Source: Campylobacterota bacterium
Lineage (GTDB): Bacteria; Campylobacterota; Campylobacteria; Campylobacterales; JAJVLF01
Direction of reading: 5' to 3'
Length of the DNA: 45,567 nucleotides
Assembly: GCA_029255845.1 (NCBI GenBank)
Contig: JAJVLF010000015.1
Location: forward strand, 1 to 45,567
The position numbers and the translations under genes are program-made. This document shows, one piece after another, positions 4,169 through 24,355 of this stretch. Numbering within the stretch: the first letter of the stretch is position 1; every line of letters begins with the position of its first letter. The notes beneath the pieces were generated by a model. The model saw only the letters and a list, made by a program, of their open reading frames with translations. It was not told where the DNA came from and ran no database searches.

Positions 4169-4324
4169 TTGTTAAAAATATTTAATAACAAAAATAATCT
4201 TGTAGGTGATGATTTAAAGAAGCCTATTGAAAACAATATTAAGCTTAGTATTGTTTTTTCTATATTCTTAAGATATGTATTTTCGCCTCAATCTATGAGT
4301 AATAAAACAAGGATAAAAGGATGA
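4169..4324 (+). CDS. Candidate 51-aa upstream (leader) ORF with TTG start, overlapping the next CDS by ATGA
   Basis: TTG at 4169, stop TGA 4322-4324 overlaps ATG at 4321; TATAAT at about 4145; translation (M)LKIFNNKNNLVGDDLKKPIENNIKLSIVFSIFLRYVFSPQSMSNKTRIKG; below the ORF-track length cutoff. Confidence 0.4.
   Translation: MLKIFNNKNNLVGDDLKKPIENNIKLSIVFSIFLRYVFSPQSMSNKTRIKG
4230..4259 (+). terminator. Hairpin with T-tract (attenuator-like) inside the leader ORF
   Basis: aaaacaatattaagcttagtattgtttt: 28-nt palindrome centred on AAGCTT with one G.T pair, running into TTTTTT. Confidence 0.45.
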
Positions 4325-6489
4325 TTAATTCCATTAAAATCAATAATATTGCAAGCTACAAGTCAGCAACATCGTTAAAAACAGAGAAAAAGATAAATTT
4401 ACTATATGGGCTTAATGGAACAGGAAAAACTACATTATCTAATTTTTTACAAGATAAAGATAAAGTAGAATTTAAAGATTGCAGTATTATAGGTGGAGAG
4501 TCATCTAAAATACTTGTATATAATCAAAAATTTATTAATGATAATTTTTATGTAAAAGATAATTTGAAAGGTATATTTACAATATCTGAATCTAATGGGG
4601 CAGCTGAAGAAAATATTAAAAATGCAAAAACTGAAATTGAAGAAATAGATAATCAGAAACGAATAAAAGAAGATAAATTAAAAAAAATAGATGGTAGTAT
4701 AGAGAAGAAACTATTAACAGCCACTAATGAAATATGGAAAATAAAAACTATCTTTAGTGGTGGAGATAGAATTTTAGATTATTGTTTAGAAGGCATAAAG
4801 AGCAGCAAATCTTTATTATTTAAACATATCAAATCATTAGAAAAATCATCAATAAAACCTGCTAAAACAGTAGATGAACTAAAAAAGGAAATTTCACAAA
4901 TTGAAGGAGATAAGGCTATTGAAATCCCGATTTTACCAAAAGTAGAATTAAGTGGATTATCTGAAATTGAAATTGACACTATTTTTAATGAAGTTATTGT
5001 TGGAAATAAAGACAGTACAGTTTCTAATTTAATTGATAAATTTGAAAATTCAGATTGGGTAAAACTTGGGGTAACTTATTTACCAACTGAAATTGCTGGA
5101 ACTGAAATTTGCCCATTTTGTCAACAAAAAACAATTAATATGGATTTGGCTAATGAGTTAAAAAATTATTTTGATAAAACATATGAAGATAAACTTAGTA
5201 GATTAAGGCAATTAAAAGATATGTACCTTAACATAAAAAATAATATTCCCAATATGGATACCTTTTTAACAAATGAGTTTTCAAAAGCTAAAAAAATAGA
5301 ACTTGAAAATTCACATACTAAATTAATTAATATTTTAAATAAAAATATTAATGCTATAGATAGTAAAATAAAACTGCCAAGCAGTACAATTAATTTTAAA
5401 GATTATACTCAAGAAATTAGCAATTTCAATGAACTTATAGAAAGTATCAATCATTTAATTATTGGACATAATGAAAAAATAAAAAATAAACAAGCTGTCA
5501 AGGACATTATAAAAAAAGAATTTTGGGAAATAATGAGATGGGAATATGATAGCTATATATTAAGTTATGAAAAAGATTTAAAAGATTTAGAAAAAGACAA
5601 ATCAAGACTAAAAGAATCAATTAAAAAATTACTTGATGATATAAAAGCACAAAATGACATCATAAAAAAAAATCAGGGAAAAACAGCACATATTGAAGAA
5701 GCAATAAGAGCAATAAATTATCAGTTGATTTTGCTTGGATTGCATGGATTTGAAATCAAACAACATGAAAATAATTTTTATAGAATAATTAGAGAAAATG
5801 AAGATGAATCGCAATTTAAGTCATTAAGTGAAGGCGAAAAAATGATAATAAGCTTTCTTTATTTTATTGAATTATGTAAAGGTAAAGAAGATAAAGATGA
5901 AACTATTTTAAGCAAGATTATTGTTATTGATGACCCAATATCAAGCTTATCTCATAATTATATTTTTAATATTGCACAATTGATAAAAAGTTATTTTTTT
6001 GATAATTCAGACTATTCTCAAGTGTTTGTATTAACACATAGTATGTATTTTTTTCATGAACTTTGTAAATTGAAAAAACCTAAAACTAGAAAACTATTTA
6101 GAATTATTAAAAAATCAGATAAATCATCTAGTTTTTTAGAAATGAAAGAAGATGAAATTTTAAATGACTATCAAGCTTATTGGAAAATTATTAAAGACTA
6201 TGAAAATGGTAATGCTCCTGATAATATTATGGCAAATGCGATGAGAAATATTTTAGAGCATTTTTTTGCTTTTGTCTATAATGAGAAAATGAAAGAAGCT
6301 ATAAAAACAATCGATTCAAATAAATATGGTGCATTTTTAAGATATGTTGATAGAGAGTCACATTCTGACCAAACAAACATATCCGACATTAAAGAAATTG
6401 ATATAAGACTTTTTAAGAATGCTTTTAAAAAGGTTTTTGAAGATACAAAAAATATAAAACATTACAATAAAATGATGGATTTAGAATGA
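4321..6489 (+). CDS. RloC/PrrC-like anticodon nuclease (AAA_13-type ABC ATPase with CPxC zinc-hook-like motif)
   Basis: Walker A GLNGTGKTTLS; CPFC motif between coiled coils; signature LSEGEKMIISF; Walker B KIIVIDDPISSL; H-loop LTHS; C-terminal RNILE...RESH matches the R-x3-E...H triad of PrrC/RloC. Confidence 0.75.
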   Translation: MINSIKINNIASYKSATSLKTEKKINLLYGLNGTGKTTLSNFLQDKDKVEFKDCSIIGGESSKILVYNQKFINDNFYVKDNLKGIFTISESNGAAEENIKNAKTEIEEIDNQKRIKEDKLKKIDGSIEKKLLTATNEIWKIKTIFSGGDRILDYCLEGIKSSKSLLFKHIKSLEKSSIKPAKTVDELKKEISQIEGDKAIEIPILPKVELSGLSEIEIDTIFNEVIVGNKDSTVSNLIDKFENSDWVKLGVTYLPTEIAGTEICPFCQQKTINMDLANELKNYFDKTYEDKLSRLRQLKDMYLNIKNNIPNMDTFLTNEFSKAKKIELENSHTKLINILNKNINAIDSKIKLPSSTINFKDYTQEISNFNELIESINHLIIGHNEKIKNKQAVKDIIKKEFWEIMRWEYDSYILSYEKDLKDLEKDKSRLKESIKKLLDDIKAQNDIIKKNQGKTAHIEEAIRAINYQLILLGLHGFEIKQHENNFYRIIRENEDESQFKSLSEGEKMIISFLYFIELCKGKEDKDETILSKIIVIDDPISSLSHNYIFNIAQLIKSYFFDNSDYSQVFVLTHSMYFFHELCKLKKPKTRKLFRIIKKSDKSSSFLEMKEDEILNDYQAYWKIIKDYENGNAPDNIMANAMRNILEHFFAFVYNEKMKEAIKTIDSNKYGAFLRYVDRESHSDQTNISDIKEIDIRLFKNAFKKVFEDTKNIKHYNKMMDLE

Positions 6490-6535
6490 ATAAAATAGAA
6501 TTTTTACTTAATTATATAAAAATTAAAAACTAAGT

Positions 6536-7234
6536 ATGAGGCTTATAAAAAAAGATTTTGTAGATAAAAATGTTAAATCTATACTTGGATATCCACTGCC
6601 ATCAGGTAAAGCTTACTATATAGAAAATGATGTAGGTTTAATTGAATATGGGAGCGATTATTATATTAACAACAATAATTTTTCTAATGAAAAAAAAGAC
6701 ATTATAGATCTTACAAAAGGCCTACCTTCTAGCTTTAAATATAATACAACAGATAACAAGCAGTCTAATAATTTTAATAAACAATCTTTATTAAGTTCTA
6801 ATGAAAGAAATTATCAAAAAGCTTTACTTTATTTAACATTTAGCGAAGAAAAGATGAAGCCATTTGTTGGATATAAAAAATATAATAATAAGTTTTTATC
6901 AAGCATATATTCTTTTTATTTAAAAGAAGACTTTTTGTCTCTAAAACAAATAGAGACTATACTTAAAATAGAAAAAAATAGTCATAAAGATATTATTAAT
7001 AAATATGGTTATCATAGTATTTCATTGAAAAATTTAGAAACCTGTTATGCTTACGAATACAAAATAAAAAGAGCCATTGATAAATTAGAGGATAAGAAGT
7101 TTATGCAAGAAATACTGAAAACTTTATATCAATATTTATACCTAACTGATAAACAAATTGAAGCGATTAGAAAATGGTTTCAGTATTTACCAAAAGATTT
7201 ACAAGAAGCCAAATTAAGGTCTTTTGATGTATAA
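6536..7234 (+). CDS. Hypothetical protein, 232 aa, downstream of RloC-like gene
   Basis: Complete ORF 46 bp after the ATPase, same strand; no recognised domain. Confidence 0.65.
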   Translation: MRLIKKDFVDKNVKSILGYPLPSGKAYYIENDVGLIEYGSDYYINNNNFSNEKKDIIDLTKGLPSSFKYNTTDNKQSNNFNKQSLLSSNERNYQKALLYLTFSEEKMKPFVGYKKYNNKFLSSIYSFYLKEDFLSLKQIETILKIEKNSHKDIINKYGYHSISLKNLETCYAYEYKIKRAIDKLEDKKFMQEILKTLYQYLYLTDKQIEAIRKWFQYLPKDLQEAKLRSFDV

Positions 7235-7368
7235 AAATAAGCAAAATTTAAAAGTATTAAAAATACCACAAAGGCAAGTAATAACTAAGCTAGATATGAA
7301 AATAGTAAATTTCACTAATAAAAATATAGAGCAAACATTTAAGCACTCAAATAAGGAGCATGTAGATA

Positions 7369-8364
7369 ATGAGCGATATTGCAATATATGAAAATACTAA
7401 TGGAGACATAAAAGTAGATGTTACTTTTGAAGATGATAGTATTTGGCTTAATCAATCACAGATTTGTGAAGTGTTTGCTAAATCAAAATCTACTATAAGT
7501 GAGCATATAAGTAATATATTTGATGAAGAGGAATTAGAGCAATATTTAACTGTTCGGAAATTCCGAACAGTTCAAATGGAAGGAAATAGAGAAGTAGCAA
7601 GAGATGTTGATGTTTATAATCTTGATATGATAATCGCTATTGGCTTTAGAGTAAAATCTACTCAAGGGACAAAATTTAGACAATGGGCTACAAAAAAATT
7701 AAATGAATATATCACAAAAGGTTTTATGCTAGATGATGATAGATTTAAAAGTGGTAATTCTATGGAGTATTTTGATGAGTTGCAAGATAGGCTTAGAGAT
7801 ATACGGCTTTCAGAGCGATTTTTTTATCAAAAAATAAAAGATATTTACACTACAAGCTATGATTATAATCCTAAAAACATAAAAACAATAGAATTTTTTA
7901 AGATTGTTCAAAATAAATTATTATGGGCTATATCAGAGCAGACAGCCTCACAATTGGCTTATGAGAGGATAGACATAAATCTACCAAACCTTGGAATGAA
8001 CTCACTTGATAAAAAAGGTAAAAATATCACAAAAGCAGATGTAAGAATAGGTAAAAATTATTTAGATGAAAATGAGATAAAGCAATTAGCTCTTATAGTA
8101 GAGCAATATCTTGCATTTGCTGAGTCTATGGCTACACAAAAAACTAAAATGTTTATGGATGATTGGATTAAAAGACTTGATAGTATTATAAGTCTTAATG
8201 GAAAAGAGATATTAAATAGTGCTGGTAAAATTAGCCATAGTTCGATGATGGAAAAAACTTCAAAAATTTATGAAGAATATAAAAATCAAAAAAAACAAGA
8301 GGAAAAAAAGCAGAGCTTGAAAGAGCTTGAAGATGATATAAAAAATTTAGGGGTTTTAAAATGA
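7369..8364 (+). CDS. RhuM family protein
   Basis: IWLNQSQICEVFAKSKSTISEHISNIFDEEEL...TVRKFRTVQMEGNREVARDVDVYNLDMIIAIGFRVKSTQGTKFRQWATKKLNEYITKGF. Confidence 0.92.
   Translation: MSDIAIYENTNGDIKVDVTFEDDSIWLNQSQICEVFAKSKSTISEHISNIFDEEELEQYLTVRKFRTVQMEGNREVARDVDVYNLDMIIAIGFRVKSTQGTKFRQWATKKLNEYITKGFMLDDDRFKSGNSMEYFDELQDRLRDIRLSERFFYQKIKDIYTTSYDYNPKNIKTIEFFKIVQNKLLWAISEQTASQLAYERIDINLPNLGMNSLDKKGKNITKADVRIGKNYLDENEIKQLALIVEQYLAFAESMATQKTKMFMDDWIKRLDSIISLNGKEILNSAGKISHSSMMEKTSKIYEEYKNQKKQEEKKQSLKELEDDIKNLGVLK
7548..7572. repeat. Perfect 25-bp palindrome within the RhuM CDS
   Basis: aactgttcggaa-a-ttccgaacagtt; 12-bp arms, 1-nt centre. Confidence 0.9.
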
Positions 8365-8878
8365 ATATAAGATTTAAAATTCAAGAGTATCAAAGTAAGG
8401 CGGTAAATTCAAGTAGGCTAATCAATGAGCAAAAAGCAGTAACTTGACTTATGATAGTCTAAATGACACTCATAATATAGAAGATATTTTTACAATAAAT
8501 CAATAAAATATACATTTTAAAAATGCAAAAAAGTGTTAAGCATATATATTTTATAGCAGAAACAAAAGGAAGTATGTCTAGTATGGAATTAAGAGATACG
8601 GAAAAAGTAAAAATAAAATGTGCTGAAAAGTTTTTTAATAGACTTCTTTCAAAACCTATCAAATTGGATATATGAATTATAGTGCATTAATTTGTGAAAA
8701 TAAAAACTAAGTAATAGCCGTAGCTATTGCGAAGGTTTTATTTTTGCAAAGTGATGTGCTATAATTTATATAGCCTTTTGATAGGTTTTGAAAGAAGTCT
8801 AATACTATTAGCAATCGTGAAGTTGTTTATAAAAAAATTGATGGTTATGATGAGCTTATGAATATTGTAAGTTTGTAA
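8361..8878 (+). pseudogene. Remnant of type III restriction enzyme Res subunit (internal deletion plus MITE insertion)
   Basis: N-terminal MNIRFKIQEYQSKAVNS; C-terminal [35 protein letters not shown]...NREVVYKKIDGYDELMNIV; stop codons in between. Confidence 0.75.
8641..8799. mobile_element. MITE-like palindromic element with 22-bp perfect TIRs and 5-bp TSD (TAATA)
   Basis: gacttctttcaaaacctatcaa (8641-8662) / ttgataggttttgaaagaagtc (8778-8799); flanked by taata at 8636-8640 and 8800-8804; interior also largely self-complementary. Confidence 0.9.
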
Positions 8879-24293: not shown

Positions 24294-24355
24294 GGGAACT
24301 TCTATTAATACAAAATAAATAGCTAATATTATATTTTGTATTAATAGAGGTTCCC
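24294..24355. repeat. Long inverted repeat, 24-nt arms, 14-nt loop
   Basis: gggaacttctattaatacaaaata (24294-24317) / tattttgtattaatagaggttccc (24332-24355); one mismatched position (G.T). Confidence 0.9.

Follow-up and report, generated by a model that had tools for sequence, protein, structure and literature searches.

ERIC sequences are spread over many genera of a lineage, are structured when transcribed and carry a TA motif, while the Correia elements of Neisseria are inverted-repeat units of ~100-160 bp that are dispersed between genes and have a TA target. Bacterial MITEs have been reviewed (PMC2229807, PMC10969869), and one of them, RUP of Streptococcus pneumoniae, was linked to IS630-Spn1 by shared ends and target preference (PMC2229807). 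In the present study, we analysed a window of 45,567 nucleotides, contig 57 of the 2.2 Mb draft genome of a Campylobacterota bacterium that is the sole member of its genus among the genomes compared. The 161-bp element described here is a copy of a previously undescribed MITE family that occurs in several Campylobacterales families; a search of the literature readable without subscription found no MITE described for this order. Like ERIC, the family consists of dispersed palindromic repeats of <200 bp (a class described in PMC2229807), extends across many genera of one lineage and would be structured if transcribed. However, it has a 3-bp ANT duplication instead of the TA motif, an autonomous partner with the same ends has been identified for it, and its hosts are Campylobacterales rather than enterobacterial or Vibrio species, which places it outside ERIC. 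Correia elements resemble the window MITE in size, inverted-repeat structure and dispersal between genes, yet the latter has other ends and an ANT rather than a TA target. To our knowledge, ERIC and the window family are unrelated in sequence, and it is by their descriptions that we set them apart. As with RUP, the window MITE is non-autonomous and tied to an insertion sequence (IS) by its ends and target preference, but the partner belongs to the IS5 rather than the IS630 family, and the MITE forms a long, full-length hairpin with a conserved core. With the IS5 family itself (NF033581, transpos_IS5_4) it has the ends AGACTTCTTKCAWAAC and the ANT duplication in common, yet it is non-coding. 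A widespread ERIC-like repeat family is hereby added to the Campylobacterales, together with a plausible IS5-type partner of the kind that is often missing for such repeats.

The mobile element runs from AGACTTC to GAAGTCT and is displayed on the + strand, the one on which the imperfections of its hairpin are G-U pairs. Its features are as follows:

8640..8800, + strand: MITE, 161 bp, from 12 full-length genomic copies, 3-bp duplications, a hairpin z of -16 and covariance model R1
8640..8663, + strand: left terminal inverted repeat AGACTTCTTTCAAAACCTATCAAA, which agrees with the reverse complement of 8777-8800 at 24/24 positions
8777..8800, - strand: right terminal inverted repeat, 24/24 against the left repeat, and from the comparison of IS ends
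8637..8639, no strand: left copy of the target duplication AAT, from the register test
8801..8803, no strand: right copy of the target duplication AAT, from the register test
8681..8761, + strand: conserved core hairpin (alignment columns 44-125), from identity profile and covariation
8709..8732, + strand: apical motif AAGTAATAGCCGTAGCTATTGCGA, also present in larger cloverleaf elements whose arms differ, from BLAST and folding

The element is thus short (below ~200 bp), non-coding and bounded by terminal inverted repeats. A sequence-only reading of the same DNA had described it as a non-autonomous palindrome of 159 bp with terminal repeats identical at 22/22 positions. At least 22 positions are indeed identical, or 24 if counted from 8640, and no transposase gene lies inside the 161-bp element; the length, by contrast, had to be corrected to 161 bp by the register test of the duplication. 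The loop, the complementary halves and the whole-element hairpin were likewise found as described: single-stranded DNA of 8641-8799 folds into a single hairpin of -51.9 kcal/mol, against a mean of -10.2 for 200 dinucleotide shuffles, none of which was as stable (0/200, z = -16.3). For + strand RNA of 8640-8800, the fold comprises 71 pairs and has an energy of -86.1 kcal/mol. Signals for a promoter or terminator in the element were no higher than in shuffles.

The sequence-only reading had made the case for a multi-copy mobile element depend on further genomic copies, and these exist. Twelve full-length copies, each at a different site and with different flanking sequence, are 92-100% identical to the window copy (100% for the one on contig 90) and measure 158-159 bp between GAC and GTC. 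Besides, the source genome holds four internally deleted derivatives (108, 70, 70 and 68 bp) whose centre is missing and ~12 half copies at contig ends with breaks near the hairpin middle, as expected of an assembler that meets a repeated palindrome. The MITE repeats also account for assembly breaks, many contigs of this genome ending mid-hairpin.

A BLAST search of 399 genomes of the order with the window copy as query retrieved full-length relatives, 72-80% identical, from the families labelled f7, f20 and f6, of which f20 (genus g20) is Sulfurospirillum by name (S. diekertiae, S. cavolei, strain SCADC and metagenome bins). A covariance model added families f8, f10 and f16 and, at E <= 1e-4, matched 29/397 genomes of the phylum, all within the same order. 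No fewer than six other Campylobacterales families hence contain related elements of 159-164 bp; these are most prominent in Sulfurospirillum, whose complete genomes carry several copies apiece; a plasmid collection yielded no match to the element. At one orthologous site, the element is present in genome G171 and absent from G138 and G257; at another, it is present in G019 and G257 and absent from G138, G171, G193 and G149. Because the flanks at the empty sites are diverged, presence and absence can be read there, but not the length of the duplication. Minimal hairpins of ~33 bp that comprise two MITE ends only are common in Sulfurospirillum (L093-L096, L098-L101, L103) and probably arose by deletion across the palindrome. 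Three Sulfurospirillum genomes (G064, G051, G160; L143-L149, L155-L161) also hold another dispersed repeat, of ~138 bp, with the hairpin TAGACTTCTTGCAAAACTCATTTTGCAAGAAG at one end and the palindrome AAGAGTTCTGCAAGAACTCTT at the other.

The centre of the element is better kept than the linkers beside it. Among the source genome, f7 and Sulfurospirillum, the central ~80 columns are 81-86% identical, compared with 75-83% for the terminal repeats and 36-54% for the linkers (in the single f6 copy, core identity is lower, at 60-63%), and a middle that is more conserved than the neighbouring linkers is not what neutral drift of the element as a whole would produce. Base pairs are formed by 97.4% of the cells in the alignment, as opposed to 50% or lower with the register slid, and double changes affect 25/58 pairs, against 14.2 in shuffles and 5-10 with a slid register. 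Besides, the structure has a polarity. The consensus folds at -63.7 kcal/mol on the window + strand versus -38.2 on the opposite one, all 26 of 26 elements fold better on the strand equal to window +, and covariance model R1 scores the window copy at 168 bits on + and 108 bits on -; what is a G-U pair on the window + strand is an A-C mismatch on the other. In a strand-neutral register, where G-U and A-C were given equal score so that neither strand was favoured, derived states at Watson-Crick pairs comprised 27 G-U versus 11 A-C (P about 0.007, for tree-related and hence not independent sequences). Several G-U pairs occur in every lineage, and since the polarity is in part shared ancestry, it is suggestive, not proof, of selection at the RNA level. 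Together, these comparisons suggest that the core hairpin is constrained as RNA.

The conserved core flanked by variable linkers, the covariation and the strand polarity also speak for a family that is primarily a host-kept structured RNA or regulatory hairpin and mobile only secondarily, as does the location of the elements between genes, with few between convergent pairs: for the 40 full-length elements with neighbours on both sides, 26 sites are tandem, 12 divergent and 2 convergent (2/40). Yet the insertions show no clear and consistent orientation toward neighbouring genes (co-directional with the left gene in 15 cases and opposed in 26, co-directional with the right gene in 25 and opposed in 16), presence and absence differ among close relatives, and Rfam 15 at gathering score has no family for the window element or for any of nine related loci. 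We consider this alternative improbable. For the window element, Rfam gave only miRNA-type hairpins below threshold; among these, the model MIR6140 was set aside at 47 bits (cut-off 140), as a long A+U-rich hairpin scores there on pairing and not on homology.

The tip of the hairpin recurs outside the family. Weak BLAST matches to the apex pointed to elements 264-267 bp long (L059, L277, L080, L283), which share the ends of the MITE but differ from it in their arms; they fold as cloverleaves of -110 to -146 kcal/mol, their hairpin 1 being capped by GAGTMATAGCYNNAGCTATKGCGA; these cloverleaf repeats have no Rfam match. Related repeats (L278, L279, L280, L282) also bear the tip motif, and no MITE ends were found there. 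It is conceivable, if rather speculative, that the core with its tip GAGTMATAGCYNNAGCTATKGCGA constitutes an RNA module common to several Campylobacterales mobile elements, with the 161-bp MITE, the 264-267 bp cloverleaf elements and the further repeats without these ends as its carriers. On this view, the arms would be exchanged and the base pairing, the G-U polarity and the tip retained, so that selection would act on the hairpin RNA itself, e.g. through an RNA-binding protein encoded by the host or the transposon.

How the element inserts was read from its flanks, which resemble TANTA on either side of the copies. Left and right flanks were compared under several registers against shuffled pairings (2000 shuffles). 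In the register NNN / A...T / NNN, the triplets match in 12/16 copies of the source genome (shuffled mean 5.8), 21/36 relatives (9.3) and 17/20 copies of the partner IS (8.8), counts reached by 0/2000 shuffles in each of the three sets; two source-genome copies with unusual triplets match on both sides as well (TTT/TTT and AAA/AAA). The target duplication is thus 3 bp, ANT (AAT here), a much closer fit than either 5 bp or 2 bp, and the element accordingly extends from the A at 8640 to the T at 8800. The TAATA reported on both flanks is present in the sequence, but it decomposes into T, AAT and A, one outer base per side belonging to the element, and the 5-bp duplication proposed earlier gives way to 3 bp (over 16 own copies, 36 relatives and 20 IS copies). 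The predicted empty site is identical under both readings.

The same flanks bear on whether the element could instead be an IS630/Tc1-mariner-type MITE, RUP-like, that inserts at TA and duplicates it. Directly outside GAC/GTC, 14/16 own copies and 32/36 relatives have TA, and dispersed hairpins of the same size class are described for RUP, ERIC and Correia-type elements (PMC2229807). A 2-bp TA duplication had in fact first been inferred from the flanks, but was rejected by the register test: the TA match is explained by the consensus alone, since shuffles yield an equal count, whereas no shuffle attains the count of the 3-bp register, which also accounts for the copies without TA. Moreover, IS5-type elements with the ends of the MITE exist, while the only IS630-type genes of the source genome (DDE_3) have no such ends. 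With neither a duplicated TA nor an IS630-type partner found, we regard this origin as very unlikely. As to a local inverted duplication or rearrangement that is not mobile, the palindrome itself is all that favours it, and near-identical copies at many sites with unrelated flanks, along with relatives in several families, remove this explanation for practical purposes.

A candidate partner emerged from a scan of the DDE_Tnp_1 loci of the order for inverted AGACTTC-type ends, which uncovered an IS in S. diekertiae and a relative with 914 bp between GAC and GTC. A homologue search then found four IS copies in G193 (905 bp) whose ends, AGACTTCTTTCATAACCC, are those of Sulfurospirillum MITEs, as well as homologues ending in AGACTTCTTGCATAACCC (G276) and, at one end, in AGACTTCTTGCAAAACTC (G389). 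The partner IS measures ~905-919 bp and encodes a DDE transposase of the IS5 family in two overlapping reading frames with HTH_Tnp_4 and DDE_Tnp_4 (Pfam domains PF13359 and PF13613); the best NCBIfam match is transpos_IS5_4 (NF033581), whose whole-protein cut-off neither half reaches alone, the gene being divided between two frames. The left terminal repeat of the window element aligns with the right end of the G193 IS (Sulfurospirillum) at 23/25 identical bases (92%). The similarity is limited to the ends, the interiors being unrelated, and the MITE is therefore not a simple internal deletion of known IS copies. An IS with matching ends, which the sequence-only reading had proposed to look for, was thus found in the IS5 family, with near-identical ends and the same ANT duplication. 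No intact partner IS was found in the source genome, which retains a decayed transposase fragment of 51 residues with a stop (C35:55884-56039). The IS5- and IS630-type transposases of that genome were discarded as partners for their non-matching ends, and its solo terminal repeats were dismissed as ends of a full IS, with no transposase between them. In Sulfurospirillum, complete genomes hold MITEs alongside intact copies of the partner IS, so both trans-mobilisation and the suspected RNA role are testable there.

The window copy has perfect 24-bp terminal repeats, and its family is dispersed in multiple copies, with ANT duplications and presence or absence at orthologous sites. Judging from the sequence comparisons, the window feature very probably (about 0.87) belongs to a MITE family that is mobilised in trans by a cut-and-paste mechanism. 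An IS5-type transposase would bind the shared ends AGACTTCTTKCAWAAC, excise the element and insert it at TANTA-like sites, and we infer that it is the transposase of the partner IS that moves the MITE. In the source genome, this partner would have been lost or have decayed, so the copies there may now be immobile, the window copy having presumably inserted into a type III res gene of which a remnant is left. Less certainly, the core, if transcribed from the window + strand, would give a long hairpin RNA whose structure may be under selection, e.g. as an mRNA-stability or processing element or as an aid to the spread of the element.

The res remnants around the insertion are the following:

8444..8551, + strand: additional piece of res in a different frame, Res residues 877-912 (tblastn, weak, E 9e-4)
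8526..8639, + strand: 3' remnant of type III res before the element (tblastn with intact Res, 52-63% identity)
8804..8878, + strand: remnant of the Res C-terminus after the element, ending in ISNREVVYKKIDGYDELMNIVSL*; 8792-8875 corresponds to residues 31-58 of the joined peptide

With intact Res proteins as tblastn queries, residues ~950 to 1012 match at 8523-8672. In-silico removal of the element and one TAATA joins ...KCAEKFFN to TISNREVVYKKIDGYDELMNIVSL*, a Res-like C-terminus as the sequence-only reading had it, and its length equals that of intact relatives: 10 residues separate FF/HF from the conserved Y in the excised reading and in four intact Res proteins (L232, L235, L237, L242), while a 2-bp duplication gives 11. 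This spacing supports the predicted empty site over that of a 2-bp duplication. The further claim that excision restores a type III res frame holds for a C-terminal fragment of the right length and not for a working gene, since only the last part, ~150 recognisable codons, of a protein of ~1,000 residues is present and the remnant is frameshifted upstream of the element. The weak match at 8444..8551 (E 9e-4) hints that the res gene may have been disrupted independently of the insertion. On its upstream side are a PrrC/AAA_13-like gene (4321-6489) and a RhuM-family gene (7369-8364), PADLOC candidate defence genes PDC-S06 and PDC-S05, respectively; given these neighbours, 4321-8364 together with the res remnant is probably a decayed defence locus.

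Finally, the exact pattern of the window element's own end, searched in genomes and viral contigs, matched only in the source genome, and terminal-repeat matches in viral contigs were rejected as chance, a second end or MITE being absent alongside. Solo MITE ends for which no second end was found lie beside genes at L034:1858, L035:1684 and L032:3346 and are relics. Another repeat family, which starts with AGGGAACCTCTATTAA (L028, L029, L030), has a truncated MITE copy at its junction, and a near match to it lies in the window at 24341 on the minus strand.
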